Made by a program: the position numbers and the translations under genes. Below the pieces are notes generated by a model, which did not search any database, was not told where the DNA came from, and saw only the letters and a program-made list of their open reading frames with translations. Below, in pieces: positions 26,422 through 61,877 of a DNA stretch of 64,000 bases. The first letter of the stretch is position 1. Each line of letters starts with the position of its first letter. Source of the stretch: Hahella sp. KA22 (lineage in GTDB: Bacteria > Pseudomonadota > Gammaproteobacteria > Pseudomonadales > Oleiphilaceae); contig NZ_CP035490.1 of NCBI RefSeq assembly GCF_004135205.1, forward strand, positions 5,313,644 to 5,377,643. The letters are read 5' to 3'.

Positions 26422-27176
26422 TCAAGAGCTATATAACGTGACATTTTCAATATCAATCGTCGCAGACTCGACTGCGTCCATGCCTCCCACGCCAGTGCAA
26501 AGGCTGGGTATGGCGATATGCCTGATTTTGTTATCCGACTTCGCATTGTATCGGGCAAGCGTCAGTATTAATCCGGCAGACAAATAGCTTCCTTCTATTT
26601 GTCTGCAACGACAGGGCCTGCACAGGTCAGGCCCTGTCTCCCGCGGCTTGTCGCCGCGCAGGCGCGTCCATGCGCCTGGTGATTAACATGCCAATATCAT
26701 TGCCATGTTAATAACAAGCCGCGCATGGCCAGATAGGCGTTGAGTGTAGCGCTGACGTTACCGGGAATTCTCATAGTCGGGGCCAGGATCAGCACCGGAA
26801 ATTACTGCGTGCGCATATCCAACGCCAACCCAGCGCCGACGGGCAGCTCACCGAGGTATTCCTGACGAATCGCCGCACAGGCTTTTGTTTGCGCCTGGCC
26901 GTCATAAAAGTCGTCTATCGCTTTATCTAGACCGCCGCTCATTTCACCAAAACTGTTGCTGGGACTGACCAGCGCGTCGCACTTCAAATGTAAGATGTCG
27001 CCCTGCGCCACCTCAACTTGATCAACCTCAGAAAACGCAGCAGCCAATGCCTTCGCCGTCATTTCATCGTATCCACACAGATGAAACGCCACCGCTTGCG
27101 GATCTTTATTCCGCCCAAAAGGTTTTACTACTCGAGGCGACTTGCCAGAAACAGAAGCGATGATCGACTTAAACAT
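26422..27176 (-). pseudogene. macro-domain protein gene, broken by a nonsense codon and a 144-bp element
   Basis: The intact 5' part encodes 124 residues with 'VEVAQGDILHLKCDALVSPS' and 'NSFGEMSGGLDKAI', the ADP-ribose-binding core of macro domains. A TAA at 26802-26804 stops it where the family has an aromatic residue. The same frame then continues 'FPVLILAPTMRIPGNVSATL' and NAYLAMRGL up to 26714. There the hairpin element (26568-26711) intervenes. Beyond it the reading resumes in frame as 'RYNAKSDNKIRHIAIPSLCT' and GVGGMD, ending at TGA 26422. Removing the element plus one TA restores 'RGLLLTLARYN', the spacing expected for this fold. Macro domains bind ADP-ribose; the gene is now dead. Confidence 0.85.
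26566..26713 (+). mobile_element. 144-bp five-hairpin MITE-like element, copy 1, with flanking TA
   Basis: The element (26568-26711) begins TTAATCCGG and ends CATGTTAA, flanked on both sides by TA. It consists of five consecutive stem-loops: H1 CAGACAAATAG/CTATTTGTCTG (11-bp stem, 7-base loop), H2 GACAGGGCCTG/CAGGCCCTGTC (11 bp, 7 bases), H3 CGCGGC/GCCGCG (5-base loop), H4 CAGGCGC/GCGCCTG (6-base loop) and H5 TTAACATG/CATGTTAA with an inner CAAT/ATTG. It interrupts the macro-domain gene in frame, which shows that it inserted. It encodes no protein. Confidence 0.85.
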
Positions 27177-27239
27177 GTTTTGTTATTTGTTTTCCTTAGA
27201 AAAGTTTTTGGACGTTAGACATTAACTATCCTTCAAAAC

Positions 27240-27641
27240 CTAGCACGGAGTCCGACGATGGAAAGCAACGTATAAACGCTGTAAGGAAGGCAGGGTCACC
27301 GCCCAATAAAGAGCGGCTTTTTCGGGGGCAACCTGCCAGAACAGGTTCTCGATAAACGATACATCAATACAACGTTTGACCTCGTCATCGCCAACCATCA
27401 ATCCGTGTTTGATCAACTCAGCAACTGCAACGTAGTTATCCAAACCTGCGCCTTTGGCCATCTGTTGATTCAGCACGTTTGCGAAGCTTTCAAACCAAAG
27501 ATAGAGCAGTTCAGCGCTATCAGAGCCCCATAATCGTTTCTGCTCCATATCAGTGAGCGCCGCCAAGTCTGGAAAACGGCGTTTAATTTCCCGCTGTAAT
27601 TCATCAAGCTTCACGTAAGAGTTCACCTGCAATGCAATCAA
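27240..27641 (-). CDS. small protein of unknown function coupled to YbaK
   Basis: The 133-residue protein is soluble and helical, with no signal peptide. The C-terminal 'YWAVTLPSLQRLYVAFHRR' is its most distinctive part, and 'LYLWFESFANVLNQQ' suggests an amphipathic helix bundle. Its ATG overlaps the YbaK stop by four bases (ATGA), so the two are translated together. I do not recognise a family. A link to tRNA proofreading is possible only by position. Confidence 0.6.
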   Translation of the reverse strand: MIALQVNSYVKLDELQREIKRRFPDLAALTDMEQKRLWGSDSAELLYLWFESFANVLNQQMAKGAGLDNYVAVAELIKHGLMVGDDEVKRCIDVSFIENLFWQVAPEKAALYWAVTLPSLQRLYVAFHRRTPC

Positions 27642-28117
27642 TCTGAAACGCCAATCGCCGCGGCGACGCCGCCAGTGAGCGATAGCAAGTCTTGAGGAGC
27701 AAGTTCTATTTCCAGGCCCCGTTTTCCTGCGCTGACGAAGATGGTGGCGTAATTGAGAGAGCTGTCGTCAAGGACGGTAGGAAGGCGCTTTTTCTGGCCC
27801 AGAGGGCTGATGCCGCCGACAATGTATCCGGTGGCGCGCTCCGCTTCTTTTGGGTCCGCCATCTCTGCTTTTTTGGCGCCGAGCGCCTTCGCAACGGCTT
27901 TCAGGTCCAGCTTTCCGGAGACCGGCACTATTCCCACGGCGAGTTTTTGCGCGCCGCCAGTTAATGACACCAGCAGCGTCTTGAATACACGCTCAGCAGG
28001 CGCACCCATCGCCTGTGCGGCTTCCTCTCCGTAGGATTCAGAACGCGGATCGTGCGCGTATTCATGAACTTGGTAGGTTACCTTGGCCTTCTTGGCCTGA
28101 TTGATCGCCGGCGTCAT
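27638..28117 (-). CDS. ybaK: Cys-tRNA(Pro)/Cys-tRNA(Cys) deacylase YbaK
   Basis: The 159-residue protein matches YbaK/EbsC in length and motifs: 'YGEEAAQAMGAPAERVFKTL', 'KLAVGIVPVSGKLDLKAVAK', 'ATGYIVGGISPLGQKKRLPT' (the conserved G-x-x-S-P-x-G loop) and 'RGLEIELAPQDLLSLTGG'. It hydrolyses cysteine mischarged on tRNA(Pro) in the cytoplasm, acting with prolyl-tRNA synthetase. The invariant lysine expected in 'VFKTL' is present. It is followed by an overlapping gene of unknown function. Confidence 0.9.
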   Translation of the reverse strand: MTPAINQAKKAKVTYQVHEYAHDPRSESYGEEAAQAMGAPAERVFKTLLVSLTGGAQKLAVGIVPVSGKLDLKAVAKALGAKKAEMADPKEAERATGYIVGGISPLGQKKRLPTVLDDSSLNYATIFVSAGKRGLEIELAPQDLLSLTGGVAAAIGVSD

Positions 28118-28147
28118 CGGACTTCCTTTTACTGCATCGTAAGTGGT

Positions 28148-29278
28148 TTATGACTGGGTAGTTTCCACCATTTTCCGAAATCGTCCAAGCGCCGCCAGAA
28201 ACAAGGCCAATCCAATCGCCGTGATGGCGAGAAATTGAGGCCATACCGCGGAGAACCCGGCACCGCGATAGATGATCGCCTGCGCAAAACTGACGAAGTG
28301 TGTGGTCGGCGCCGCCAACATAATGTACTGCACGATATCCGGCATGCTTTCCCTCGGCGTGATGCCCCCGGACAACAACTGCATAGGCAGTATCACCAGA
28401 ATAATCAGCAGTCCCAGTTGCGGCATGGAACGTGCAACCGTGCCGAGGAAAATCCCCATGGATGTCGTGGAGAACAGATGCAGCGCCACGCCGATTAGAA
28501 ATAAGGGTATCGACCCTGCAATCGGCACATCCAACACTCCCTGAATCACCACATATAGTGACATGGCAGCCCCCAGTAGAACGACCAGACCATTAGACCA
28601 CACCTTCGCCGCCATGATTTCCAGTGGCGACAACGGCATCACCAGCAAATGCTCCAGAGTGCCGTGCTCTTTCTCTCGGATCAACGCAGCGCCGGTGAGA
28701 ATAATCGACAGCAGTGTGATCTGAGAAATAATCTCCATCACGCCACCGAACCAGTATCCCGTCAGATTAGGGTTAAACATGACGCGCACATTCTGCTCTA
28801 TCGGCAGCGCCGCATCATCACGGCGTCCGCTGACGAACTCGTTCACCTCCGCCGTCACGATACTGCGAATGTAGGTAGCGCCAATGAACGCCTGCGTCAT
28901 GGCGGTGGCGTCGATATTCACCTGTACATCCGCACTGCCTCCCGCCATCACATCCTTCTGAAAACCGGACGGAATAACCACCACAAAGGTGTAGCGCCCT
29001 TCATCCATTCCCGCGTCCACCTCTGCATAAGAGATCAACTCCGGCTCTTTGAAGTGCGGAGGGTAAAACGCATTCGCAATGCGTAAAGACAGTTGGCTCT
29101 GATCCTCATCCACGATTGCAAGCGGCGCGTTGCGCAGTTCCCGCGAGGCCGCCGTCGCGGCGCTGTACACAATGATCGTGAAGGCCGCCAGAACAAAAAT
29201 CAGCAACGCCCGATCATGCAGAAAGCTGCGAATCTCTTTCACTCCCAGGCGGCGAATATTGGCTAATCTGGTGCTCAT
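28148..29278 (-). CDS. ABC-2 type permease (YhhJ-like)
   Basis: The 376-residue protein has one N-terminal transmembrane helix (about 27-45), a large periplasmic loop (about 50-170) and five C-terminal helices, the ABC-2 permease layout of YhhJ/YbhS. 'GTLEHLLVMPLSPLEIMAAK' is the conserved cytoplasmic coupling motif (REKEHGTLE...P....E...AK). It starts one base after the stop of the RbbA-like gene and forms the last gene of an HlyD / ATPase-permease / permease exporter operon. The substrate is unknown; such systems export drugs or other amphiphiles. Confidence 0.85.
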   Translation of the reverse strand: MSTRLANIRRLGVKEIRSFLHDRALLIFVLAAFTIIVYSAATAASRELRNAPLAIVDEDQSQLSLRIANAFYPPHFKEPELISYAEVDAGMDEGRYTFVVVIPSGFQKDVMAGGSADVQVNIDATAMTQAFIGATYIRSIVTAEVNEFVSGRRDDAALPIEQNVRVMFNPNLTGYWFGGVMEIISQITLLSIILTGAALIREKEHGTLEHLLVMPLSPLEIMAAKVWSNGLVVLLGAAMSLYVVIQGVLDVPIAGSIPLFLIGVALHLFSTTSMGIFLGTVARSMPQLGLLIILVILPMQLLSGGITPRESMPDIVQYIMLAAPTTHFVSFAQAIIYRGAGFSAVWPQFLAITAIGLALFLAALGRFRKMVETTQS

Positions 29279-29279
29279 A

Positions 29280-32030
29280 TCAACGCCCCTGCTTTTTCAG
29301 AGTTAATACCGACAGCACAGTAACCACCGGAATGAAGGCGGCGAGAATCAGGAAATAGCGGTACAGATCCGCAAACTCCAGCGCCTTGGTGAAGGTTCCC
29401 CGACTGATAATCAGAAAGTAAGTAGTTGGATACAGACTGCCGATCCAGGCTCCAGCCCCTTCCAGGGAGGACACCGGGTCCGTCATACCGGAAAACTGCA
29501 CCGCAGGAACCAGTGTGGCCAACGCCGTCCCCGCCAACGCGGCAATCTGGGTCCGGGTGAATGATGACACCAGCAATCCCAACCCTGTCGTCGCGGTGAC
29601 ATACAACAGCGCCGCAACGCTTAGCGCAGCGAAGCTACCTTTGATGGGCACATCGAAGAAAAAAACCGACTGCGCCACCAGTAACAAAAAGCTGATCATA
29701 CTGACAAGAATGTATGGCGCCTGCTTGCCCAGCAGAAACTCCAACCGCGTCACCGGCGTGACATACAGATTGACGATGGAGCCCAGCTCCTTCTCCCGCA
29801 CCACCGCCAGCGCCATCAAGATGGCGGGGATGAAAATCAGCAGCATGGGTATCACCGCGGGAACCATGGCGTAGATGCTGCGGAAATCCTGGTTGTATCG
29901 ATAACGCATTTCCAAATTGACTGGAGACAACGCGGGCGCCGAACCCAATGATCGTATGGCGAGATCGCCAAGGTAAGCGTAGTGGGCGGCGGACAAATAT
30001 CCTTTGATCGTCTCGCCCCGGAACGGCATGGCGCCATCCAGCCATACCGCCACGCCTGTCTGCCGTCCGCGGCGTATGTCGCGCCCGTACCCAGAAGGGA
30101 TTTCCACCACGAAGCTGAGTTCGCCGCTGCGCATGCGACGATCCACATCCTCATAGGTAGACGCCTGCGGCTGCTGAATGAAATAGCGCGATCCCGCCAG
30201 ATACTGAACGTAGTCACGGCTTTCCGGCGTTTGATCCTGATCGTAGACGGCGAACGCCAGATCCTCTACATCCAGACTGACGCCGTATCCCAGTACGAAC
30301 ATCAAGATCACCGAACCTAAGAGCGCGAACGTCAGGCGAATCGGATCTCGTAAAAACTCCAGCGATTCCCGGTGCGCATAGGCCAACATTCGGCGCATAT
30401 TGAAGCCTCGCGCCATGGCCGGCTTGGAGCGCTCGGGGGACGGGCTCTCTATCGTAGAAGATTCATCGCCAGCGTTGTTTTCAGCGCCCTGCCCCTCGCT
30501 GGCGGCTTCAGTCAGGCAACTGACGAACGCTTCTTCAAAGCTCTCCGCTTGACGTTGCGCCACAATATTTTGAGGTGTGTCGCAGGCCAATACTTTACCG
30601 GCGTGCATCAACGAAACACGGTCACAGCGCTCGCCTTCATTCATGAAGTGAGTGGAAATAAATATGGTCACCCCATCCTGGCGGGAAAGCTGAATAAGAT
30701 GCTCCCAGAACCGATCCCTCGCCACCGGGTCCACGCCGGAGGTGGGCTCATCCAGAATAAGAATTTTCGGCTTGTGGACGACCGCCACCGCCAGCGAAAG
30801 ACGCTGCCGAATCCCCAGGGGCAGAGATTCCGCAAATTCATTTTCATATGCCTGCAGATCAAACCCGCTCAACAGTTCCTGGGTTCGCGTTTCCGACTGG
30901 CGGGCATCCAGCCCAAATATACGCGCGTGCAGCATAAGGTTTTGGCGCACGGTCAACTCAGCGTAGAGTGAAAACGACTGCGACATGTACCCCACGTTTC
31001 TCTTCGCTGACAGGTCGTTCGACGCCATTTCAGCGCCAAACAGTCGCACGACGCCAGTAGTGGGTGGAGACAACCCGGTGAGCATCTTCATCGTGGTGGT
31101 TTTACCGCAGCCGTTAGAGCCGATAAAACCGAAGATTTCTCCCTGACGAATACTGAAACTCACATGATCTACCGCCGTGAAATCGCCAAAGCGTTTAACC
31201 AGCCCTTCCGCTTCGATGGCGGGGGTCGACGAACGCTCCCGCCAGGGGGAGATCGTCAGCTCACGATGTCCCTTGCGGCTTTCTTCCGGCAGCAAGCGGA
31301 TAAACGCCTCATCGAGATTTCCCGCCCCGGTTCGCGTCTTCAATTCCATTGGCGTTCCCGTCGCCAGAATGCGCCCCTTATCCATCGCCACCAGCCAGTC
31401 AAAACGCTCCGCTTCATCCATGTAGGCTGTGGATACCAGCACGCTCATGCGACCAGCGTCGCCCCGCAGCTCATCAATCAATCGCCAGAACTGGCGACGG
31501 GACAATGGGTCAACGCCGGTGGTCGGCTCATCCAGAATCAGCAAGTCCGGGTCATGAATCAGGGCGCAGCACAGACCCAGCTTTTGTTTCATGCCGCCGG
31601 AAAGCTTACCCGCCGGCCGCTCGCGAAATCGGCTAAGACCCGTGCTGCGCAACAAAGTATTGATACGATGATGACGCTCCCTTTTATCCAGACCAAACAG
31701 GCGACCAAAGAAGTCCACGTTCTCGAAAACAGAGAGAGAAAAGTACAGGTTTTTCCCAAGCCCTTGCGGCATATAAGCGATGCGGGGGGACAATTCATCG
31801 CGCACATTATCGTCGCTGATGTCGCCGCCCAATACGCTCACTGAGCCGCACTGAATGCGCGCGGCCCCGGAGATCAGATTCAACAGACTGGACTTGCCGA
31901 CGCCATCGGGACCAATGATCCCGGCGATGACGCCGGCGGGAATATTCAGGCTCAGCGTTTGTAGCGCGATAAGGTCGCCGTATCTATGTTCGAGCCCATT
32001 GATTTCGACAACCGGCGCAGCTGAACTCAC
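29280..32030 (-). CDS. fused double-ATPase ABC-2 transporter, RbbA/YhiH-like
   Basis: The 916-residue protein contains two nucleotide-binding domains and a C-terminal ABC-2 membrane domain. NBD1 (about 1-235) has Walker A 'GPDGVGKSS', signature '[11 protein letters not shown]' and Walker B '[13 protein letters not shown]'. NBD2 (about 275-500) has '[10 protein letters not shown]', a divergent signature '[11 protein letters not shown]' and '[13 protein letters not shown]'. The membrane part (about 545-916) carries '[20 protein letters not shown]'. This architecture is that of RbbA/YhiH. E. coli RbbA associates with ribosomes, but with an HlyD partner upstream an exporter role is more likely here. 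Its ATG overlaps the adaptor stop by four bases. Confidence 0.9.
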
Positions 32031-33025
32031 TGCAGCCTCACTTGCAGGTCATCCGGCCAGTCGGCGGCGTCTTCCAGTTTCACAAAAGCCACGCCGGTAA
32101 CCCCGGTTTTGACTTTTTCCTGATGCGCTTTCAGCAAGTCAGGATCAATTTTCACTTTCACCCGGAACATCAGTTTCTCACGCTCCGTCTGCGTCTCCAC
32201 CTGCTTGGGCGTGAATTGCGCTCGGGGCGCCACATAAGAAACCCTGGCGGGAATACGCAAGTCCGGCAAGGCGTCGACCACTACTCGCGCATCCGCGCCT
32301 ACTGACAACACGCCAGCCTGATACGTAGGAAGAAAAATCGTCATGTAGACGTCGGTCAGGTCCAACAACGCCAGCACCTTGCCGCCAGAACCCAGCACCT
32401 CTCCCGGTTCCGCCAACCGATAGAGCACCCGGGCGTCGATAGGCGCTTTCAACTCGGATTCGGCGATATTAGCGTGCAGGCGCTCAATGGCCGCTTGCGC
32501 AGCTTCAATCGCCGCCTGTGCTTCCACCACCTTAATGCGGGCGGCCTTCAGTGCGGCTTCAGCCCGGAGCTTGGAGGTCTTGTCCAGGTCCAGTTTCTCT
32601 GCAGAGACGTGGCCTTTCTGACTCAACTGAGTAGAACGAGTCAGCTCCTTTTCCGCAAAGCTCAACTCACTTTCATATTGATCCACCACCGCTTCCGCGT
32701 ACTTGGCGGATTCCTGCACCTGCCGCAGCGTAGCCTGGGCCTGACGCAACTCCGCCTGCAGATCGTCCACATTGATGCGCGCCAGCACTTGCCCGGCTTT
32801 CACCATTTCCCCCTCTTCCACCAGGACTTCCTCAACCCGTCCCGGCAGCTTTGTCGCGACATCAATCTCCTGCGCTTCCAGACGCCCATTTCCCCGGGCG
32901 ATGGAGTCCGGTAGACTGTCCGGCTGGTAGGCCATGTAGGCGAATCCGGCCGCCGCCAGCAATAGCGCCGGAACCAGAAACCTGATCCATTTTTTCTGCG
33001 ATTCGCGCTGCAATTCGCTGTTCAT
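32027..33025 (-). CDS. HlyD-family membrane-fusion (adaptor) protein, YhiI-like
   Basis: The 332-residue protein has one N-terminal transmembrane helix (about 14-31). A split lipoyl/biotinyl domain ('[20 protein letters not shown]' ... '[20 protein letters not shown]') surrounds a long alpha-helical hairpin (about 85-190, Gln/Glu/Ala-rich). A beta-barrel end has '[20 protein letters not shown]'-type sequence. It bridges the inner-membrane ABC transporter to an outer-membrane channel. GGAGGAG five bases upstream fixes the ATG at 33025. First gene of the exporter operon. Confidence 0.9.
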
Positions 33026-33182
33026 TTCTCCTCCTCCCTCGTACAAATTCGAAAACGAAAGGAACAATAAAGAAAAATGATCGCGACAACGCTGACGAGC
33101 GTCAAATCCGATTCGCAAAGGCGCTTAGTTATCAGAAACTTAACGAACGGCGGCGTCTATCCGCCATCCCGGAGACTTGGAC

Positions 33183-33485
33183 ATGATCAGACATTTTGTA
33201 TTCGTGAAGTTTAAAGACAGCCTATCCGAGGCGGATGTGGCGGCAATGGTCGAGCGTTTCGCCAAGATGGCGGAAGAAATGGACGAAGTCGCCGCATTTG
33301 AATACGGCCCCAACAATAGTCCAGAGGGACTGACCAAAGGCCTGGAGCATTGCTTCAATCTGTCCTTCGCCACTATCGCGGACCGCGACGCCTATCTTCC
33401 TCACCCCAAGCATGAAGCGTTCAAAGAGGTTTTCGTTCCAACCATCGCTGATGTCATGGTGTTCGATTACGAAGTGGCGGAATAA
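33183..33485 (+). CDS. Dabb (stress-responsive alpha/beta barrel) domain protein
   Basis: The 100-residue protein has the typical Dabb pattern: 'MIRHFVFVKFKDSLSEADVA', 'CFNLSFATIADRDAYLPHPK' and 'HEAFKEVFVPTIADVMVFDY'. Such domains dimerise into small barrels and are found in stress proteins and in some polyketide cyclases. GGAG nine bases before the ATG at 33183 sets the start. It is a single gene, convergent with the HD-domain gene. Confidence 0.85.
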   Translation: MIRHFVFVKFKDSLSEADVAAMVERFAKMAEEMDEVAAFEYGPNNSPEGLTKGLEHCFNLSFATIADRDAYLPHPKHEAFKEVFVPTIADVMVFDYEVAE

Positions 33486-33496
33486 CGCACGAAAGC

Positions 33497-33539
33497 TCCC
33501 GAGACCAACCTGAAGATATCGCCAGGGTTTGTCTCGGGA
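33497..33539. terminator. long inverted repeat between convergent genes
   Basis: TCCCGAGAC and GTCTCGGGA enclose 25 bases that can extend the stem (AACCTG with CAGGGTT, one bulge). It lies between the stops of the Dabb and HD genes. The position suggests bidirectional termination, though T-tracts are short. Confidence 0.5.
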
Positions 33540-33553
33540 CTATGGTTACCCCT

Positions 33554-34141
33554 TTACTTAGCCAGCCCTTTCCCTGAGCCTTGCGCTTTCTCCAGCGTCT
33601 CCTGATCGACAATTTCCCGTAATTGCTGAATAAATGGGTCTATATTCGCGTACTTTTTGCCGTATTCCAGGTTGAACGCGTAATCGAAATCCTGAGGGTT
33701 TTTCCCCTGGTTGTGCTGCAGGATAGTTTCCATCTTATCCAGGGCTTTGGCGACTTTAGCCTCAATGGACTGCATCTGGTCATAATCATCCCACAGCGCC
33801 AGAATTTCCTGTTGCTGCGCCTTGGGCAGCGGCGTCAGTAACTGCTGTAGATCTTTGCGCTCCTCAATGGATTTATCGACATCCGGCGACTGTTCCGTCG
33901 CGGGAATATCGCCACTGATGGCCTCTCCCAGATCGTGAATAAGGCATATTTTCAACAGCCTGGCGAAGTCCAGCTCCGGCAGTGCCTTTTCAAACACCAT
34001 CGCCATCAGACAAAGGCGCCAGGTATGTTCCGCGGTGCTTTCTTTACGGCCCGCAGAAGTCCAGGCGGAGCGGATGACGTTCTTAAGCTGCTCCGCCCCT
34101 CTTAAAAATTCCAATATTCCATGAATGTCGGATTGCAGCAT
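33554..34141 (-). CDS. HD-domain hydrolase, YfbR/HDDC2-like
   Basis: The 195-residue protein carries metal ligands in HD order: 'STAEHTWRLCLMAM' (His), 'LLKICLIHDLGEAISGDIPA' (His-Asp) and a later Asp in 'AKALDKMETILQ'. The D-L-G-E-x-x-x-G-D-I-P-A motif is diagnostic for the YfbR/HDDC2 5'-deoxynucleotidase group, which removes phosphate from deoxynucleoside monophosphates. AAGGAG precedes the ATG. It is a single gene. Confidence 0.85.
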   Translation of the reverse strand: MLQSDIHGILEFLRGAEQLKNVIRSAWTSAGRKESTAEHTWRLCLMAMVFEKALPELDFARLLKICLIHDLGEAISGDIPATEQSPDVDKSIEERKDLQQLLTPLPKAQQQEILALWDDYDQMQSIEAKVAKALDKMETILQHNQGKNPQDFDYAFNLEYGKKYANIDPFIQQLREIVDQETLEKAQGSGKGLAK

Positions 34142-34236
34142 TCGTCTTCTCCTTCTGCTGTTAATACTTCAAATATCGCGGCTACGCTGGTTCTGTCATT
34201 GCAGACATATCGTTGATTTGCCCGCCCTGCATTAGT

Positions 34237-46887: not shown

Positions 46888-47002
46888 TATTAATCCGGCA
46901 GACAAATAGCTTCCTTCTATTTGTCTGCAACGACAGGGCCTGCACAGGTCAGGCCCTGTCTCCCGCGGCTTGTCGCCGCGCAGGCGCGTCCATGCGCCTG
47001 GT
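46888..47002 (+). mobile_element. five-hairpin element, copy 2, lacking the last hairpin
   Basis: The sequence is identical to copies 1 and 3 from the flanking TA (46888-46889) through H1-H4, ending at GCGCCTGGT. It then departs from the other copies exactly where H5 would begin. It lies 11 bases downstream of the astB stop and 131 bases upstream of the kinase start. Loss of precisely one hairpin module suggests either deletion or a modular structure. Confidence 0.85.
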
Positions 47003-47013
47003 CAAGGAGGGAG

Positions 47014-48354
47014 TTACGCCAGCTGGAAAGGATACAGCGAGCCTAATTGCAACAGTTGGGTCAGTTCATCCAGCGCCGTGCGGCATTCGGTCAGCAGCTG
47101 CGGGTCAGACAGATCCTGCTGGGAGATGCGGTCGCGGTAGTGCTTGTCCACCCAGGCATTAAGCGTGTCGAACAATGTGTCAGACATCATCACATGGGGA
47201 TGCACCGCCGCCAGCTCCGCTTCCGTCAACGCCACACGCAGACGCAAACAGGCCGGGCCGCCGCCGTTTTTCATGCTTTGCTTCAGATCGAAAACTTCCA
47301 CGCGCTTAATGGGGCCGCCGCGAGTAACCAGATCATCCAGATAGGCTTTGACGTTAGGATTGTCGCGACACTCATGAGGCACCACCAGCATCATGTCGTC
47401 GTCATTCAGACTTAACAACTGGCTGTTGAACAGGTAGCTGGACACCGCGTCCGCCACAGATACTTCGCTATCAGACACTTTGACCGCCTTCAGCAGACAG
47501 CCTTGCAGTTTCGCTTCCAGCTCGGTCAGCATTTGCGACGTATTCACAAACGCCTGTTCGTGGTAGAACAGCACATTGCGGTTACCTACCGCGATAACGT
47601 CATTGTGGAACACGCCCTGATCAATGACCGCCGGGTTCTGTTGCGCGTACACCACTGACGAGTCGGCCAGTCCATGCAAACGCGCCACCGCCTGACAGGC
47701 TTCCAGAGTCTGTCGCGCAGGGTATTTCATCGGACGCGGCGCATTCTCGTCGAAAGCCACTCTGCCATAGACAAACAGCTCCACTCCCTTGTCTTCATAG
47801 TTCTTGCAGAAACGGGTGTGGTTAGCCGCGCCTTCGTCGCCGAACTGACTGGTGGGCGGCAGCGCCTTGTGATGAGCGAAGTGCTGATCATTATTGAAAA
47901 TGCCCTGCAGGATACGGGTCGTTGTCGGGTGCTCAATCGAACGGTGGAACTTCGCATTCAGGTTCGCTGCAGTGAAGTGCACCCGACCATCAGTGGTGTC
48001 GGCGCTGGGCGAGACGGTCGCCGCATTCGCCGTCCACATGCAGGAGGCGGAAGCGACTGCGCCCAGAAACACCGGCGCCTGATGCGCCGCCTGCAGCAGT
48101 ACTTCCCGATCTGACCCGGTAAAGCCCAGACGACGCAGAGTCGCGATGTCCGGGCGCTCCTGCGGCAGCAATACGCCCTGCTTGAAGCCCATGTCGTGCA
48201 GCGCCTTCATTTTGCGCAGCCCTTGCTTGGCGGCTTCCCTGGGGTTGGACACATCGCGAATATTGGTTTCTGAGGCCACGTTGCCGTAGGAAAGCCCGCT
48301 ATAGTTGTGAGTCGGCCCTACCAGCCCGTCAAAATTGACTTCAAATGCCTTCAT
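47014..48354 (-). CDS. astB: N-succinylarginine dihydrolase
   Basis: The 446-residue protein has the AstB signatures: '[20 protein letters not shown]', '[20 protein letters not shown]', '[20 protein letters not shown]', '[20 protein letters not shown]' and '[13 protein letters not shown]', which contains the catalytic Cys. It hydrolyses N2-succinylarginine to N2-succinylornithine, CO2 and two ammonia, the second step of the AST pathway. Last gene of the operon here; hairpin element copy 2 follows within 11 bases. astE, which often comes next, is missing. Confidence 0.97.
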
Positions 48355-52063: not shown

Positions 52064-53281
<1,218 letters not shown>

Positions 53282-53508: not shown

Positions 53509-53524
53509 ACTGTCGCGCGACAGT
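53509..53524. promoter_or_regulatory. 16-base palindrome containing TGTCGC on both strands
   Basis: ACTGTCGCGCGACAGT is a perfect palindrome 51 bases before the ATG of the GNAT-like gene. Each arm carries the TGTCGC core of ArgR half-sites, but the AA spacing is not met, so another regulator or a hairpin is equally possible. Confidence 0.4.
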
Positions 53525-53574
53525 CCCGGTCTCGCTTAGTATAGGAAGGCTTTCTATAAAGGGTGTGAATAACC

Positions 53575-54786
53575 ATGAAAAATACGCTCGCCAAGATCAA
53601 GGACGTAAAAAATCGACATAAAGAACGCCGCACGCCTCTGGGACTGGAGTTCGCTATCGCCGACAGCATCAACTTCCTCAATGCGGCGGACTGGGACCGT
53701 GTCGCCGACGCCGCATCCGTATTTCTGCAACGGGACTATCTACAGGCGCTGGAGCTCAACGCGCCGGACAATGTATCTCCCCGCTACGGCCTGATATACA
53801 AAGACCGTACTCCAATCGGCGTGGTCAGCTGCCAGATCGCCGATGTGTCCGGCGACCGTATGATGAAAAGCGAAAAGCCCGACAACGCCAAAGCCAAATT
53901 GAGTCAGAAGTATCAGGAACGCATTTTGGTTTGCGGCAATCTGGTGTCCTGCGGCCTCCATGGCGTCGCCTTCGCCGAGGGCGTCGATGCGGAGCTGGGA
54001 TGGCGCGCCCTGGCGGAGCTGTTGTACCGCATCCGTCGGGGAGAAAAGCTGGGGGGCTCCATCGACTTTGTCATGCTCAAGGACTTCAACAGCGATATGT
54101 TGCCGCAGTCTGAAATCCTGAAACGCTACAGTTACCGATCCATTCAGACTGACCCGGAAATGGTGTTGACGCTGGAGCCGGGAACCCGGACCTTCGAAGA
54201 CTATCTGCAAAGCCTCACCGGCAAGTACCGCAAGCGCATTACCGCCATCATCAAGAAGCTGCAGGACGCCGGCGTGGAAACGCAGACCCTGGACAGCATC
54301 AGCGATGAACAGGATGCAGCGCTGCACGCTCTCTACCTGCAGGTGGAGAACCGCGCCGCCGCCCGTCTGGCGACATTACCCAAGGGGTATTTCAAAGCGC
54401 TGTCGGATTCGCTGGGAGACCGTTTCGCCTGCACCACTTTGTCAATGGATGGTCGGATTGTAGGCTTCGTCACCTCTGTTAAAGACCGCGACACATCCAT
54501 GGCCTACTACGTCGGGCTGGATTACGACGTTAACGCCGACCTGCCCCTGTATTTCCGCCTGCTACAGCTCTCCATTGAACATGGCTGCCAGTTTGGTTGC
54601 GGCAAAGTATCCCTGGGCCGAACCGCACTGGAGCCCAAGGCCAATCTCGGCGCCAAACCTGTGGATTGCCATCTGTGGATGCGGCATCGCGCCGCGGCGG
54701 TCAACTACGTGGTGCGCAAACTGTTTCGCGCCATCCCCCATGCGGAAGCGCCTACTCGCAATGCATTGAAGACCGTCGAGCAGTAA
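53575..54786 (+). CDS. GNAT-fold protein of the peptidogalycan-biosynthesis/FemAB-like type
   Basis: The 403-residue protein has a C-terminal acyltransferase-like half: 'FEDYLQSLTGKYRKRITAII', 'VENRAAARLATLPKGYFKAL', 'MDGRIVGFVTSVKDRDTSMA' and 'YYVGLDYDVNADLPLYFRLL', followed by 'KVSLGRTALEPKANLGAKPV'. The pattern matches the PF04339/FemAB-like branch of the GNAT superfamily. Its substrate is unknown. It lies between the ast operon and argR and may share their control through the palindrome upstream. It has no signal peptide. A role in arginine metabolism is speculative. Confidence 0.7.
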   Translation: MKNTLAKIKDVKNRHKERRTPLGLEFAIADSINFLNAADWDRVADAASVFLQRDYLQALELNAPDNVSPRYGLIYKDRTPIGVVSCQIADVSGDRMMKSEKPDNAKAKLSQKYQERILVCGNLVSCGLHGVAFAEGVDAELGWRALAELLYRIRRGEKLGGSIDFVMLKDFNSDMLPQSEILKRYSYRSIQTDPEMVLTLEPGTRTFEDYLQSLTGKYRKRITAIIKKLQDAGVETQTLDSISDEQDAALHALYLQVENRAAARLATLPKGYFKALSDSLGDRFACTTLSMDGRIVGFVTSVKDRDTSMAYYVGLDYDVNADLPLYFRLLQLSIEHGCQFGCGKVSLGRTALEPKANLGAKPVDCHLWMRHRAAAVNYVVRKLFRAIPHAEAPTRNALKTVEQ

Positions 54787-54809
54787 CCGCTATTATTCGC
54801 CGGCGGCCA

Positions 54810-55742
54810 TCAAGGCTGACCGGCTCTTTCCTCACTGGGCGTCAGCCCGTACAGATTGCGATAAGCAGTGGAAAAATGCGCGCCGGAGGAAAAGCCGGTT
54901 TTCAAACCAATTTCGGTGATGCTCAAAGGGGAAGAGCACAGCATGTCCCGCGCCTTTTCCAGGCGAATCTGCAAATAATAACGGGAAGGCACGGAGTCCA
55001 GATAACGTTTGAACAAACGCTCAAGCTGGCGCCGTGAGATCTCCAGGTGCTTGGCGATATCGTCCGTGGTTAACGGCTCTTCGATATTGTTCTCCATCAG
55101 TTGCACCGCATCACAGAGCGCCGGCGCTTCTCTTTTCGCCACGAGGTCAGGACGCTTGCGCCCGGTGGTTTTGGCGCCGCCAAGACGCTCCCGCATGATG
55201 GCCTGAGACGCCATTTCCGCCAGCTCGACTCCATGATGACGCCCAATCATAAACAGCGCCATGTCCAGCGCGGCGGTGCCGCCGCGGCAGGTCCAGATAT
55301 TAGCGTCAACGGAAAACACATCCTGAGATAGAAAACATGCCTGCGCCTGTGCAGCAAATGCATCAGGAATTTGTAAAGAGACTTTTTTTCCGCGCAACAG
55401 TCCCAGTTCCAGCAGCAAAGCCGCGCCGTTAGCCACGCCTCCCAGCCAGGATAGGCTTTTGCTGTGCGTGGCGAGCCATTCTTTTTCCAGCAGCGGCGTT
55501 TTATAAAGTCCGACAGAGCCACAGACAACCAGCGCGTCCAGGCCGGCGGCATGAGCCAGAGAGCGGTCCACAGACACCGCCACGCCGTCTCCCGACGTCA
55601 CCACCGGCTCCGCTCCCAGCCGCACCAGTCGATACTTGCGCTCGTCCAGCAGCTCATTACATACCCGCAACGGCTCCACCAGGCTGGCGTAGGACAGCAT
55701 GGAGAATCCCGGCAGTAACAGTACGCCCAGTTTGCAGCTCAA
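54810..55742 (-). CDS. argR: ArgR-like AraC-family transcriptional regulator (GlxA type)
   Basis: The protein has about 310 residues. The N-terminal DJ-1/PfpI-like sensor domain ('KLGVLLLPGFSMLSYASLVE' ... 'DALVVCGSVGLYKTPLL') is followed by an AraC HTH domain (about 210-305): 'EEPLTTDDIAKHLEISRRQL', 'ERLFKRYLDSVPSRYYLQIR' and 'ITEIGLKTGFSSGAHFSTAY'. This is the architecture of Pseudomonas ArgR, which controls the aru operon. I prefer a TTG start at 55742 with AGGAA seven bases upstream. An ATG at 55841 lacks a ribosome site and adds residues atypical of the family. Assignment to arginine control rests on context. Confidence 0.75.
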   Translation of the reverse strand: MSCKLGVLLLPGFSMLSYASLVEPLRVCNELLDERKYRLVRLGAEPVVTSGDGVAVSVDRSLAHAAGLDALVVCGSVGLYKTPLLEKEWLATHSKSLSWLGGVANGAALLLELGLLRGKKVSLQIPDAFAAQAQACFLSQDVFSVDANIWTCRGGTAALDMALFMIGRHHGVELAEMASQAIMRERLGGAKTTGRKRPDLVAKREAPALCDAVQLMENNIEEPLTTDDIAKHLEISRRQLERLFKRYLDSVPSRYYLQIRLEKARDMLCSSPLSITEIGLKTGFSSGAHFSTAYRNLYGLTPSEERAGQP

Positions 55743-55965
55743 GACCGATTCCTCACACCCGACAGCCCGCCGCCGGGCGGAGCTGAGAATTTCTGCTATA
55801 AATAAGAGTAATAATAGATTAAGCGGCTGCGACAAAACCATCTAAAGACCGCCTCGGCGATGCCGGGATGGCGAGGTCGCGTCCAGCGGTTACGGAGCTT
55901 ATCCTATTCGTCCGCGAAGTATAACTCCCGCCGCCAGTTGAACTAAATTCAAATACGGAAGCGAC

Positions 55966-57717
55966 ATGGCTCACATCTTCAGCCGGGTAACCCGACACAT
56001 TACCATTTTCCATCGCGCATTAATGATGAGCGCCGTGTTCGCCATCATTCTTACCTGCGCACTATTGTACTTGCTGGGAGCGGTGCACGACATGCTCAGC
56101 ACCATCGAAGGCCAGCGCAGTATGGTGGAGCAGCAGAACACCGCCGTCGCCAAGCAGAATCAACTAGTCAGCCAGCAACAACACCTCAATGCGCTGCTGG
56201 CGGAAAGTCAAACCGCCTTCGCCCAGTATTCCGAGTACCTCTATTGGCGCCTGGACTCCGCCACCACCGCAGAAGAACGCTCCATCAGTCAGGGCGACCA
56301 GGCGGAGAAAAACCTGCGCAACACCTTGGACAAAATCGCTGGAACTGACGAGGAAATGGCGGATGTCGCGGATGTCGTGCTGATGTATCTGGATGACTTC
56401 AACAAATCCATCGCCGAAGCAGTGGAACGCACCCGCAACAATGACTCCCGCCAGCGCGTCAGCGCGATGATCGGCGAGGCCCGCACCGCCAGCATGGCCA
56501 TGAGCTCCACCTTCAAGATCATACTGGAAGAAGCCGCCAAAGCCGCGGCGGAAGCCAACAAGGGAGTTGGGCAGGCGGCGCAGGAAGTGTCCGTCGCCGC
56601 CAGCCAGGTCTTGGAGGCTAACGATTCTGTCGCCGCCGCCGGCCGCAGTTTGCAGCAGGAAGTGTTGTTTATCCTCGTAGTGTCGGTGACGGTTTCGCTG
56701 CTGGTGGGCTTCTTATTATCCCGCTCCATCACCCAGCCCATTCATCGTCTACGCCGGGTGATTACGGAGATTGAGGACACCAACGACCTCACCAAACGGG
56801 TGAATTACAGCCGCCAGGATGAAATTGGCGCTATCGCCCAGGCGTTCAACGCCATGATGGATAAGTTCTCCGTCATCGTGGGCGATCTGGCGAAGACCAC
56901 GGACGAACTTTCCGCCTCCTCTGAGCAAAGCGCCCGCATTAGTGCGCAAACTAAAGAGTCCGCCGAGCAACTGAGTCACGAAACCGATCAGGTGGCGACC
57001 GCATCTAATGAAATGACGGCGACCGTCAAAGGCATCAATGAAAATACGGACAATGCCGCCAATATCGCTCTGGAAGCGCGCAAGGCCTGCGAATCCGGAA
57101 AAGCCTCGGTGGACGGCGCCACCACACGCATCAATGAGCTGACTCAGGCCATCAATGAAACATCAGATTCGGTCAGCCAGCTCGCCAGGGAAAGCGAATC
57201 CATTGGCGCCGTTCTCGACGTGATTCGCGGCATCGCCGAACAGACCAACCTGCTGGCGTTAAACGCCGCCATAGAGGCCGCACGCGCAGGGGATCAGGGA
57301 CGCGGCTTCGCCGTAGTGGCCGATGAAGTGCGCACGCTCGCGCAACGCACCGGCAACTCCACTGATGAAATACAAAAAATGATCGAACAGCTCCGCGCCG
57401 GAGTGAATAAAGCCGTCTCCAGAATGGAGCAAAGCTGCAAACGCGCGGAAGGCACGGTTACTCAAGCGAGTCAGGCCGCCGAATCTATTGATCAGACGCT
57501 CTCCGCAGTCACCTCCATGCATGACGCCAACCAGTATGTGGCGCAAGCCACCTATGAGCAGCGAGAAGCGGCTGAGAGTATTGATCGCAGCATTGTAGCC
57601 ATCAGTGAACTGTCGCAAACTCTGCATACCGCTGCCGAGGAAAACTTCCAGTCCAGCGACAACCTGAAGCAAATGGTGACCCGGCTTAGACAGCTAGTCG
57701 TCCAGTTCAGGTATTGA
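55966..57717 (+). CDS. methyl-accepting chemotaxis protein
   Basis: The 583-residue protein has two transmembrane helices (about 18-40 and 226-248) around a helical periplasmic sensor of about 185 residues. A HAMP domain ('[20 protein letters not shown]') and a long signalling coiled coil follow. The tip matches the conserved hairpin '[20 protein letters not shown]' and '[20 protein letters not shown]'. It senses an unknown ligand and controls CheA at the pole. There is no C-terminal CheR-binding pentapeptide; it ends 'QLVVQFRY'. Single gene. Confidence 0.93.
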
Positions 57718-57790
57718 TCAAGGTCTGGCGACGCTTGCAGAAAGCCATGTCCTTATGGCGTTCGCACATAGCGAGAGCGGTCAATGCGTC

Positions 57791-57836
57791 GACTGGGACG
57801 AGTGACTAGTGCAGCGTCCCCAGTCTCTCTCTTTTG
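57791..57836 (+). terminator. probable terminator of the chemoreceptor gene
   Basis: GACTGGGACG pairs with CGTCCCCAGTC (one bulged C) around a 14-base loop and is followed by TCTCTCTTTTG. It lies 74 bases past the stop. The right arm overlaps the 3' end of the leftward micro-gene. Confidence 0.5.
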
Positions 57837-57940
57837 TAACGCACCCACTCGCCATCCACGCATTTGTAGTAGAACGCCATCATGTATGTGCTAACCGGCA
57901 TTTGAATGCGAATGATATCTCCGTCAGACGAAACCTGCAT
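57806..57940 (-). CDS. 44-residue small protein behind a LexA box
   Basis: A short gene preceded by GAGGG seven bases before the ATG encodes MQVSSDGDIIRIQMPVSTYM and continues 'MAFYYKCVDGEWVRYKRERL' to GTLH. The composition is protein-like (hydrophobic/aromatic core, basic end). A perfect SOS box lies 72 bases upstream with a possible promoter overlapped by it. I know no family for it. It may be DNA-damage induced. The main doubt is its small size. Confidence 0.55.
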   Translation of the reverse strand: MQVSSDGDIIRIQMPVSTYMMAFYYKCVDGEWVRYKRERLGTLH

Positions 57941-58012
57941 AATCAAGCCCTCATATAACAGTGCCAGCGTTCCTGCTTGTGCGGCGACGCCGGGAAGTGT
58001 TTAAACATACAG

Positions 58013-58032
58013 TACTGTAATCTTATACAGTA
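58013..58032. promoter_or_regulatory. LexA (SOS) box
   Basis: TACTGTAATCTTATACAGTA contains the CTGT-N8-ACAG core in fully symmetric form and extends to TACTGTA/TACAGTA arms, the consensus for gammaproteobacterial LexA. Reading leftward, TTGAAC (58060-58055) and a TAAAAA hexamer directly before the box could form a promoter for the micro-gene. Rightward, the dipeptidase start is 124 bases away. Confidence 0.75.
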
Positions 58033-58155
58033 TTTTTAATTCTGTCTACACTTTGTTCAACCCTTGTCTTGTTGGCATCCCCTTTCGCTTTGGGTAAGGT
58101 ACTGACGCCCGCTCGGAGCAATCCGGCTTACTGATGGATAAGGTCTCAATACATC

Positions 58156-59325
58156 ATGAAGAAAAAAATACTGACTGGACTGCTGATTACCCTGATCATC
58201 GCAGTTCTTTCGTTTTTCGCCCTGGTTCCGCCGCTGGTGGATAACGCCAGCAATCAGCTCACAAGCTCACCGCCGCAGCCGGCGACGGATAAAGTCAAAA
58301 GCCTGCACCAGTCTCTGTTCATCGCCGACCTGCACTCGGATTCACTGTTATGGGGCCGCAACCTCTCCAAAGGCTATCAGCGGGGTCACATGGACCTGCC
58401 GCGGCTGCGGGAGGGAGGCATGGCGTTGCAGGCGTTCTCGGTGGTGACCAAAGTTCCCTTCGGCCTGAACATCCAGAAAAATACCGGCGATAGCGACATG
58501 ATATTCTGGCTGGGACTGTCGCAGGCCTGGTCGCCCAGCGCATTACAGAGCCTTTTGAGCCGCGCCGAGCGTCAGGCGGGGATGCTTCACGATATCGCCG
58601 ACTCGCCCGCCAACAAATTCACACTCATTCTGAACCGCAAGAATCTACAGGATTTCATCGCGCGGCGAAAAACCGACAAGGACGCCCTCGCCGGCTGGCT
58701 CACCTTGGAGGGAGCGCAAGCGATGGAAGGCGACCTGAAGAATCTGGATGCTCTGTATGAAGCGGGTTTCCGCATGATTGCCCCTACCCATTTCTTCGAC
58801 ACGGAACTGTCCGGCTCCGCCCATGGGGTTAACAAGGGGGGGCTAACAGCACTGGGGAAACAGTGGGTGAAAGCCATGGAAAACAAGTCCATGATCATTG
58901 ATCTGGCCCATGCTTCCGCCAAAACTATTTCTGACGTGCTCACCATGGCCAAACGCCCCGTTATCGTGTCGCACACGGGCGTCAAAGGAACCTGCAACAA
59001 CAACCGCAACTTGTCCGACGCTCAGCTAAAAGCCATCGCCGCCAACGGCGGTATCGTCGGCATCGGCTTCTGGTCGACGGCGGTCTGCGGACACGATGCG
59101 GCGTCCATCGCCCGCGCGATCAAATACACGGTCAATCTGATTGGCGTGGAACACGTGGCGATGGGGTCGGATTTCGACGGAGCTGTGGCGACGCCTTTCG
59201 ACGTCACCCGACTGGATGGCTTAACCGAAGCGCTGATGAAAGCGGGGCTGAACGAACGTCAGATTCGCAGGATAATGGGCGAAAATATCCGCGACTTTCT
59301 GCTTAAAAACCTGCCGTCCGCCTGA
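58156..59325 (+). CDS. membrane dipeptidase (M19, renal dipeptidase family)
   Basis: The 389-residue protein has an N-terminal signal anchor (about 4-24). The M19 barrel keeps the zinc ligands: His-x-Asp in 'IADLHSDSLLWG', the bridging Glu in 'LTLEGAQAMEGDL', His in 'IIDLAHASAKTI' and 'VIVSHTGVKGTC', and Asp in 'VAMGSDFDGAV'. It hydrolyses dipeptides, including D-amino-acid-containing ones, at the periplasmic face. The LexA box lies 124 bases upstream but is nearer to the divergent micro-gene. Single gene. Confidence 0.9.
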   Translation: MKKKILTGLLITLIIAVLSFFALVPPLVDNASNQLTSSPPQPATDKVKSLHQSLFIADLHSDSLLWGRNLSKGYQRGHMDLPRLREGGMALQAFSVVTKVPFGLNIQKNTGDSDMIFWLGLSQAWSPSALQSLLSRAERQAGMLHDIADSPANKFTLILNRKNLQDFIARRKTDKDALAGWLTLEGAQAMEGDLKNLDALYEAGFRMIAPTHFFDTELSGSAHGVNKGGLTALGKQWVKAMENKSMIIDLAHASAKTISDVLTMAKRPVIVSHTGVKGTCNNNRNLSDAQLKAIAANGGIVGIGFWSTAVCGHDAASIARAIKYTVNLIGVEHVAMGSDFDGAVATPFDVTRLDGLTEALMKAGLNERQIRRIMGENIRDFLLKNLPSA

Positions 59326-59336
59326 TCTTTCCAACC

Positions 59337-59978
59337 TCAGGGCGCCGCCACCGGCGCCCGTTTAAGGCGATACAACTGCCGGTCATGAACCCGCCCAAGG
59401 GTCACTAAAGCAGTGATAGCGCCCACCAGGGCGTAGCACATGTCTGACTGGGTATCCCACTCGTAGCCCTGGGTGCCCAGGAAAGCGACGGAGGAGTCTC
59501 CACTGGCCACCGCCACCCACCATTCAATCAGCTCATAGAAGGCGCTGATCGCCAGGGCGATGCAGACAATAAAGAAGTTCATCCATCCACGCCCTTTCAC
59601 AACCCGCAGACGTAGCAGAATTTCCCGGGCCACCATCGCAGGAATAAAGCCCTGGGCGAAATGGCCGACCTTGTCGTAGTTGTTCCTTCCCCACCCCATG
59701 ATTTCTCCAATGCGGTCGAACAGGGGCACCTCCGCGTAGGTATAGTGCCCGCCCACCATAAGAATGACCGAGTGGATCAAGATCAACCAATACAACAGAG
59801 GCGTCAGCGGAAATCGCTTGTAGGTGGACGCCAGAATGAAGGCGGCGATCACCGCCGGCGCTACTTCCAGCATCCAGGTAAACCGGTCTTTCGGCCATAG
59901 TCCCGACCAGACCAGCACGCCCAAGAAGATGAGAATCCAAACTACGCCGGCTCCAACGCCGCCCCGGCCATGCCCCAT
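59337..59978 (-). CDS. YjdF/DUF2238 family inner-membrane protein
   Basis: The 213-residue protein has about six transmembrane helices. The family signatures are 'MVGGHYTYAEVPLFDRIGEI', 'NNYDKVGHFAQGFIPAMVAR' and 'SAFYELIEWWVAVASG', with conserved His and acidic residues inside the membrane. Function is unknown throughout the family. It lies 77 bases downstream of the FAD oxidoreductase gene on the same strand, so the two may form an operon. Confidence 0.85.
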   Translation of the reverse strand: MGHGRGGVGAGVVWILIFLGVLVWSGLWPKDRFTWMLEVAPAVIAAFILASTYKRFPLTPLLYWLILIHSVILMVGGHYTYAEVPLFDRIGEIMGWGRNNYDKVGHFAQGFIPAMVAREILLRLRVVKGRGWMNFFIVCIALAISAFYELIEWWVAVASGDSSVAFLGTQGYEWDTQSDMCYALVGAITALVTLGRVHDRQLYRLKRAPVAAP

Positions 59979-60055
59979 ATGATTGATCCTTAGCAGTTAT
60001 AATTGCGGATCAACAACATAACGCATTCTGCGGCGGGATTCGATCCCCAGGAGGA

Positions 60056-61699
60056 TTATCCCGCCTCCCTGACTTCCGAGGCCGGCTGCGCAGGTTGCGG
60101 CCCCTGCTTCAGCAGACGCCCCAGCTTGTAGCCTTCTTTGCCTAGCATGGCGAAGCTGGTCATGACGCCTCCCATCAAAGCGCCGCCCACACCGGCGGTG
60201 ACCACATCCGCACCGGTCAGATAGAAGTTTTTGATGGGCGTCACCGGGTGCAGCCAGTCCTGCTGGAAGCGCTCGACAGTATGATCCACCCCGTAAATTT
60301 CTCCCCCCATGTTCATCTGGAACCACTGCGTCGACAGCGGCGTGGATAGCTCGTAAAAGTCCAGCGCCGCCTCTAATTGCGGCAGGCGCTTATACAATTC
60401 ATCGAGCATCCGGTGAGAGAACTGCTCCTTCAGGGCCAGATAATCTTCACCGCGCTTGTTCCACTGCGATCCCGCCCATTTATCAAACCATTGGTTGTTG
60501 ACGGGGACGATGATCTCCACGGTGGAGCGATCCAGATAGCGTGAATTCCAGGTGGGGTCTTTCGCGGAAGGGAAGGACACATAGGTCACAGGAAAAGGCG
60601 CAGACGGATCTTCCATAAAGCGGGCGACGTTACCGTCATGGTCATCGGAGGGATATATCCAGAAGTTGCTCCGCGGCATGCCTAAACTTTCCGGGGAGCC
60701 GCGAAATCCTGCATAGAGACACAGATGTGACGCGGATAGCGCCAGACCCTCCAGCTTTTTCAGCAAGTCGCCCTTCGACGCGGCGGACTCGGGCAGCAGA
60801 TGCTTGATGGTAGGTATGACGCCGGCATCGCTGACCACAGCGTCCGCCTGCAGTTCGTCACCATTGCTCAAACGCACGCCGTAAGCGCGATTAGAGCGCA
60901 CCAGCACCTCCGCCACTTGCGCGTAGGTGAACACTTCCCCGCCGCTGCGGCGAATCATCGGAATAATTTCTTCAGCAATGCGCCAGGAGCCGCCCACCGG
61001 ATAGTTGCCTCCCGTGATGTAGTGCTTCGCCACCATGGCGTGCATCATGAAGGAAGAAGTCGTGGGCGGCAGGCCGTAATCGCCCCATTGCGCCGTCAAC
61101 ACGGAGATCAAGCGCTGATTTTGCGTCAGGCCTTCCAGCACTTCACGGGTGGTCTTGAAAAAGTAATCCGGCAGAAGAAAACGGCGGGCCTTGTGATAAG
61201 CCCAGGCGGCGATCTTGGGCAACGCCTGCCCGGCGAAAAACTTGGGGATGCGTCGACTGACCGAGTACAGCAAATCGACATAGCGGCGGATGGCGTCTTC
61301 TTCGCCGGGAAAACGTCGCGCCATTTCGTTGATGAACGGTTCTTTGCCGGCGATGAAGTCGTAATTGTCTTCGCCAATGAAAATACGATCGTAGCAGGGG
61401 TCCATTTCCGCCCACTCTATCTTGCCGTCGCTGATCAGATCGAACACCCGACGGATCATGGACCAGGGCTTGTGCACTTCGCCGATATAATGCACTCCGA
61501 CATCCCATTCATAGCCGTTGCGTTCGTAGCTATGGGTATAACCGCCAGCGGTGTAGTGCTGTTCCAGCACGCAGACCTTCTTACCGATCAGTGACAACAA
61601 CGCGGCGTTGCATAGTCCGCCGACGCCTGATCCGATGATGATCACGTCATAGTGATCGTCCGCTCGATTCTTACGGTAACGCTTTCCCGTTCTGACCAT
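60056..61699 (-). CDS. NAD(P)/FAD-dependent oxidoreductase, CrtI/retinol-saturase-like
   Basis: The 547-residue protein begins with a dinucleotide fold 'YDVIIIGSGVGGLCNAALLS' and 'VCVLEQHYTAGGYTHSYERN', which places it with phytoene desaturases and all-trans-retinol 13,14-reductases (RetSat). 'GVHYIGEVHKPW' and the C-terminal 'FYLTGADVVTAGVGGALMGG' are typical of the RetSat side. It should saturate or isomerise a polyene or lipid, but no carotenoid genes are near. The hairpin element copy 3 begins only 31 bases upstream of the ATG and probably lies in the promoter. Confidence 0.85.
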   Translation of the reverse strand: MVRTGKRYRKNRADDHYDVIIIGSGVGGLCNAALLSLIGKKVCVLEQHYTAGGYTHSYERNGYEWDVGVHYIGEVHKPWSMIRRVFDLISDGKIEWAEMDPCYDRIFIGEDNYDFIAGKEPFINEMARRFPGEEDAIRRYVDLLYSVSRRIPKFFAGQALPKIAAWAYHKARRFLLPDYFFKTTREVLEGLTQNQRLISVLTAQWGDYGLPPTTSSFMMHAMVAKHYITGGNYPVGGSWRIAEEIIPMIRRSGGEVFTYAQVAEVLVRSNRAYGVRLSNGDELQADAVVSDAGVIPTIKHLLPESAASKGDLLKKLEGLALSASHLCLYAGFRGSPESLGMPRSNFWIYPSDDHDGNVARFMEDPSAPFPVTYVSFPSAKDPTWNSRYLDRSTVEIIVPVNNQWFDKWAGSQWNKRGEDYLALKEQFSHRMLDELYKRLPQLEAALDFYELSTPLSTQWFQMNMGGEIYGVDHTVERFQQDWLHPVTPIKNFYLTGADVVTAGVGGALMGGVMTSFAMLGKEGYKLGRLLKQGPQPAQPASEVREAG

Positions 61700-61729
61700 A
61701 TTCTCCAGCCTCCTTCCTGATTATTGTTT

Positions 61730-61877
61730 TATTAATCCGGCAGACAAATAGCTTCCTTCTATTTGTCTGCAACGACAGGGCCTGCACAGGTCAGGCCCTG
61801 TCTCCCGCGGCTTGTCGCCGCGCAGGCGCGTCCATGCGCCTGGTGATTAACATGCCAATATCATTGCCATGTTAATA
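61730..61877 (+). mobile_element. 144-bp five-hairpin MITE-like element, copy 3, with flanking TA
   Basis: The element (61732-61875) is identical in length and, as read, in sequence to copy 1, with the same five hairpins and a TA on both sides. It sits between the divergent oxidoreductase (31 bases away) and RHH genes. All three copies in the window have the same orientation. Confidence 0.9.

Follow-up and report, generated by a model that had tools for sequence, protein, structure and literature searches.

The repeat unit of pneumococcus (RUP) is thought to be mobilised by IS630-Spn1, an insertion sequence (IS) (PMC2229807, PMC3049150). The Correia or NEMIS elements of Neisseria, small miniature inverted-repeat transposable elements (MITEs) flanked by TA, are called IS630-derived (PMC2817692), and their transcripts are described as forming stem-loops (PMC2229807). 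Here we describe a 144 bp element of this kind from the marine bacterium Hahella sp. KA22. It was noticed in a stretch of 64,000 nucleotides (NZ_CP035490.1, positions 5,313,644 to 5,377,643 of the forward strand), hereafter called the window, which lies within one contig of 6,960,771 bases in a genome of 6.96 Mb. We conclude, with a probability of roughly 0.92, that the element is a non-coding, IS630-derived MITE of a Hahella lineage, most likely mobilised by a 344-amino-acid (aa) IS630-family DDE transposase. Its copies, empty insertion sites with a single TA, a symmetric target, ends similar to those of an IS630 element and a candidate partner were all observed directly. The element is short and non-coding, is present in many copies, duplicates TA, has IS630-like ends and shares its genome with a source of transposase, and these are the marks of an IS630-derived MITE.

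Going by the published descriptions, the Hahella element resembles RUP in that it is short, has about 100 copies, targets TA and possesses ends similar to those of an IS630 element in the same genome (PMC2229807, PMC3049150). RUP is described as 107 bp long and as folding with its terminal repeats paired together, whereas the Hahella element has 144 bp and a single copy folds as five hairpins in a row; the consensus of many copies also pairs its ends. The Correia/NEMIS elements, to which the likeness is that of a small TA-flanked MITE ascribed to IS630 (see above), are again of other dimensions in their description, with about 107 and 155 bp and 24-bp inverted repeats. ERIC/IRU repeats of enterobacteria are likewise short and have TA at their termini (PMC2229807); in its passages on these repeats, the same source names a partner IS for RUP and not for ERIC/IRU, whereas the Hahella element has a candidate in its own genome. 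REP/BIME repeats share with it the high copy number of hairpins in intergenic DNA (PMC2817692), but they go with RAYT proteins, another class of enzyme, and the Hahella element was unlinked to Y1 genes at 19 of 20 loci. Judged by these accounts, the mode of action of the Hahella element is probably that of RUP and the Correia elements (PMC2229807, PMC3049150, PMC3852290, PMC2817692). It is new only as a family and belongs to a known kind of element. A search of the Hahella literature, covering titles and the beginnings of abstracts and not including the original Hahella genome paper, returned no report of such a repeat. With this family, Hahella has a well-defined, high-copy MITE and a candidate partner for it; the general picture of how such elements work is unchanged.

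The first-pass annotation had listed three copies in the window that match base for base where they overlap, and both the identity and the coordinates proved exact. With the flanking TA included, the copies at 26566-26713 and 61730-61877 are identical over 148/148 bp, and the one at 46888-47002, which is without hairpin 5, has zero mismatches to the other two over 115/115 bases. In the two complete copies, exactly 144 bp (TTAATC...GTTAA) lie between two TA dinucleotides, again as annotated. A pattern for hairpin 1 had three matches in the window, with a maximum of 0 in any of 100 shuffles. No open reading frame (ORF) of at least 120 aa, the only size class considered, overlaps any of the three copies, in line with the claim that the element encodes no protein.

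The three copies are a small part of the family. In the KA22 genome, the hairpin 1 pattern (up to three mismatches) had 100 matches, 52 forward and 48 reverse, and the hairpin 5 pattern had 96, while the reversed-pattern controls gave 0 in both cases. We also searched seven Hahella genomes (G000 to G006, of which G000 is KA22) with a covariance model whose structure was taken from a consensus fold of 34 copies, scoring up to 150 candidates per genome. It matched 121 times in G000, at least 150 times in G002 (a lower bound, as all 150 scored candidates matched), 64 times in G001, 35 times in G005, where the copies are more diverged, and 4 times in G006; in G003 and G004 there was no match. The 19-base core of hairpin 5 (up to two mismatches) had one match in G003 and two in G004, the latter with 1-2 mismatches, against 0 for the reversed control in both genomes, and faint traces of the element may conceivably be present there. 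Outside the genus, a DNA search found the element in 0/51 genomes from other genera of the same family and order (up to 14 candidates scored in each), the covariance model detected no copy in seven genomes with related transposases (a search run without a positive control), blastn gave no match in plasmids and phages, and viral contigs contained no exact hairpin 1 core. We placed 95 of the G000 copies; 84 of them are full length and represent 53 distinct sequences. As many as 14 of the 84 are mutually identical, which points to recent spread. Recent spread had been proposed by the first-pass annotation, which had named many copies in the genome as support; G000 has about 100-120. The copies fall into subfamilies defined by diagnostic changes, which suggests that there may have been several bursts.

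Twelve insertion sites of G000 were compared with sister Hahella genomes. At six of them (L005, L006, L007, L013, L091 and L135), one or more relatives have a cleanly empty site in which TA stands once, where the filled state reads TA-element-TA. Two more (L012, L123) fit an empty site with a small difference beside the TA, and one (L085) is filled in both G000 and G002. The remaining three were uninformative: L003 and L010 have a diverged flank, and at L008 the left flank differs and the corresponding place in G002 carries a diverged copy. Since the empty sites contain one TA, the element itself comprises 144 bp and duplicates TA. Neither of two outcomes that the first-pass annotation had named as refuting, occurrence at three places alone or TA flanks that are not conserved, was seen. 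Insertions that one species has and others lack should also be useful for strain comparison.

The bases around the target follow a pattern. Among 78 full copies, T or C precedes the TA in 70 and A or G follows it in 61; two bases away, A is found before the TA in 40/78 and T or C after it in 59/78. The target profile is thus symmetric around TA, as a TA-targeting DDE transposase would give. Predicted genes contain 2 of the 84 full copies but 1033/1680 random TA sites from the same loci (empty sites rebuilt from the flanks), so that insertion or survival is mostly intergenic; the gene positions come from a simple home-made gene caller, which, judging by eye, missed an interrupted gene at L135. 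The context of gene pairs was tandem at 43, divergent at 17 and convergent at 16 of 76 sites, six more sites being without a flanking gene call. Compared with the background of the window (29 tandem, 8 divergent, 8 convergent), these 76 sites show no bias towards the ends of convergent genes, and orientation is unremarkable.

A search of the genus with PF13358 gave 28 matches. One group of IS630 elements, here called type A, has five members in G000, five in G001 and four in G002, several being fragments; three of the five copies in G000 retain a 348-codon open frame. The protein tested (344 aa) matches the IS630 transposase model NF033545 with 235.5 bits (cut-off 100) and contains DDE_3 and helix-turn-helix domains. 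The type A element is about 1.1 kb in size and is located elsewhere in the same chromosome as the MITE copies. The left end of its copy L158 is TATTAATCCGGCACCGATATAAGCAT and the right end TATTAACCAGGCATCGATATAGGCAT, with slight variation in other copies, so the genome does hold an IS630-family element with TTAA-type ends, the kind of element that the first-pass annotation had proposed to look for. We compared 24-base ends, using 305 TTAA-anchored 24-mers from the window as control. The right end of the MITE shares 19/24 positions with the right end of the IS and 17/24 with the IS left end, where the best controls reached 15 and 14. Type A was found in the three copy-richest genomes, each with at least 64 MITE copies, and the closest of the related transposases examined in other gammaproteobacteria (L225, 62% identical) is flanked by TATTAACCCGGC ends.

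Several observations weigh against this pairing. The left end of the MITE, in the form with CCGG seen in the window, agrees with the left end of the IS at 15/24 (best control 14) and with its right end at 14/24, a value equalled by 7/305 controls; the CAGG form that is common in other copies would score 14 and 15 by eye. Taken alone, the left end is a weak match, and between the left and right ends of the MITE itself no more than 12/24 positions agree. Of seven related transposase loci in other gammaproteobacteria, L225 is the only one with TATTAACCCGGC; at L229 both sides carry TATTAACCGTCTC, and 5/7 show nothing similar. Type A was not detected in G005, a draft of about 130 contigs with 35 MITE copies, and in G006, with 4 copies, there was no IS630 match. 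The partner may have been lost from G005 or missed in its draft assembly. G003 and G004 likewise gave no type A match.

From the similar ends and the co-occurrence, we infer that the type A transposase moves the MITE, and the proposal of the first-pass annotation, a MITE mobilised by a Tc1/mariner- or IS630-like transposase, gains support to that extent, with the left end as its weak point. The transposase would recognise MITE ends of the TTAA-NNN-GGCA type (GGCA-containing) and act on them in trans, by cut-and-paste or otherwise. Insertion would take place at a TA, which would thereby be duplicated, and the internal hairpins would be structure that is tolerated, as opposed to a regulator that has a target of its own. 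Another IS630 group of the genus, type B, was rejected as partner, its ends matching the MITE at just 8-12/24. Type B is multi-copy in G002 (L161, L165, L169, L173, L176, L178, L181), with the ends TAAGTAGC and TAAGCACC or TAAGTACC.

The element folds very strongly. The plus strand forms five consecutive stem-loops, as first described from the letters alone, with a folding energy of -75.1 kcal/mol, compared with a mean of -41.5 kcal/mol (sd 3.6) for 200 shuffled controls (z = -9.2); the minus strand likewise folds into five stem-loops. The statement that hairpins 1 and 2 share an 11-bp stem and a 7-base loop was correct for hairpin 2 and for both loops, but hairpin 1 has 12 pairs. Inside the loop of hairpin 2, the folding program places one isolated extra pair. 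When 34 copies are aligned, their consensus fold keeps four hairpins and, in place of hairpin 5, pairs the ends of the element together. An array of five hairpins is unusual for such an element, and the family should lend itself to tests of the reasons for strong hairpins in some MITEs. Parts of the array also occur in other arrangements. The copy L095 (G000:C1:2031892-2032081) has a tandem duplication of hairpin 1, and a lone hairpin 1 in G000 (L104:1502-1530), flanked on either side by sequence like TTAAT or TAAT, resembles a minimal palindromic mini-element.

It could be argued that selection maintains the array for an activity of the folded strand, for example the protection of read-through transcripts or help in recognition by the transposase. 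We consider this unlikely; if it were true, the MITE would carry structural cargo whose stems evolve by paired mutations. A little less probable still is that the hairpins are a functional RNA or DNA structure kept by the hosts, such as an RNase III target, a transcription insulator or an mRNA stabiliser, a reading that could hold alongside that of a MITE. The very strong folding speaks for a function, as do changes on both sides of pairs. In 64 distinct ungapped copies out of 87 distinct ones (the 23 left out being 21 of other length and two of 148 bases, L095 and L115), 96.3% of the cells were paired, and changes on both sides occurred at 6/49 pairs (10 cells). This was reached by 0/500 shuffles, and controls with slid partners had just 1-3 such pairs. 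In addition, three isolated copies of hairpin 5, found in G000 without the rest of the element (L190:1493-1521, L191:1435-1463 and L192:1464-1492), keep complementary arm ends although both arms are altered (TTCACATG...CATGTGAA, ATAACATG...CATGTTAT and TTTACATG...CATGTAAA, respectively). However, informative pairs are few because the copies have diverged little. One slid control scored higher for covariation (0.026) than the true register did (0.024), and RNAalifold on 34 copies gave an unfavourable covariation term of +0.29 kcal/mol without forming hairpin 5. A subfamily with one broken pair has also multiplied, to at least seven copies; the form with that pair restored has four. Moreover, the context of gene pairs given above is not special, and there is no consensus promoter-like or terminator-like site at copy 1. 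Repair of one arm of a palindrome from the other can also yield paired changes. The stems are thus kept to some degree, which arm-to-arm repair could explain as well as selection, and since the paired base changes exist but are few, any function of the hairpins is putative.

Much less probable is a REP/BIME-like family, in which the hairpins would be moved as single-stranded DNA by a Y1 transposase (RAYT or IS200/IS605) without target duplication. The element is after all an array of hairpins, Y1_Tnp genes are present in 7/7 Hahella genomes, and insertion beside a TA without duplication is formally hard to distinguish from duplication of the TA. However, these genes are also found in G003 and G004, where the covariance model finds no copies, and at 19 of 20 Y1_Tnp loci no hairpin match scores higher than 0.71 of the maximum. 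As the repeats do not accompany the Y1_Tnp genes at these 19 loci, we rejected a RAYT/Y1 origin. The symmetric TA target profile fits a DDE enzyme, and it is the IS630 element that has similar ends. At one locus in G002 (L072), the only such case among the 20, the element has a copy about 1.5 kb or less from a weak Y1_Tnp match. Three Y1_Tnp (RAYT-like) genes lie within 8 kb at G000:C1:5929391-5937118, unlinked to the element. An ancient, conserved and non-mobile sequence at syntenic places, to which the occupation of L085 in two genomes and the diverged G002 counterpart of L008 might point, can practically be dismissed, as 8/12 examined sites are empty in at least one relative and many copies at unrelated places are identical or nearly so.

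The features of the three copies are collected in Table 1.

Table 1. Positions in the window of the MITE copies, their target duplications, terminal repeats and hairpins
Feature	Position	Strand	Evidence
MITE copy 1, full length, 144 bp (TTAATCC...GTTAA)	26568..26711	+	identity to copy 3; 100 genomic hairpin 1 matches
Putative TA target duplication, left, copy 1	26566..26567	.	sequence; duplication seen at empty sites of other copies
Putative TA target duplication, right, copy 1	26712..26713	.	sequence; duplication seen at empty sites of other copies
Left terminal inverted repeat, TTAATCCGGCA...	26568..26591	+	15/24 identical to left end of IS630 element
Right terminal inverted repeat, TTAACATGGCAATGATATTGGCAT	26688..26711	-	19/24 identical to right end of IS630 element
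Hairpin 1, 12-bp stem, 7-base loop	26576..26606	+	fold; both-side changes at 3/12 pairs
Hairpin 2, 11-bp stem, 7-base loop	26610..26638	+	fold; both-side changes at 1/11 pairs
Hairpin 3, 6-bp stem	26642..26658	+	fold; both-side changes at no pair
Hairpin 4, 7-bp stem	26659..26678	+	fold; both-side changes at no pair
Hairpin 5, outer arm within right terminal inverted repeat	26682..26712	+	fold; both-side changes at 2/13 pairs
MITE copy 2, truncated: hairpins 1-4 only, without right end	46888..47002	+	sequence
MITE copy 3, full length	61732..61875	+	site (L007) empty in G001 and G002 (L139, L140)
TA target duplication, left, copy 3	61730..61731	.	single TA in empty site
TA target duplication, right, copy 3	61876..61877	.	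single TA in empty site

In the window as a whole, no Rfam family reached its cut-off and a tRNA scan found none. About 12 bases beyond the truncated copy 2, a minus-strand gene (47014-48354) has its stop codon; we take this gene for succinylarginine dihydrolase (astB). An ORF of 1552 aa (21576-26234), some 330 bases away from copy 1, looks by eye to be rich in RHS-type repeats.

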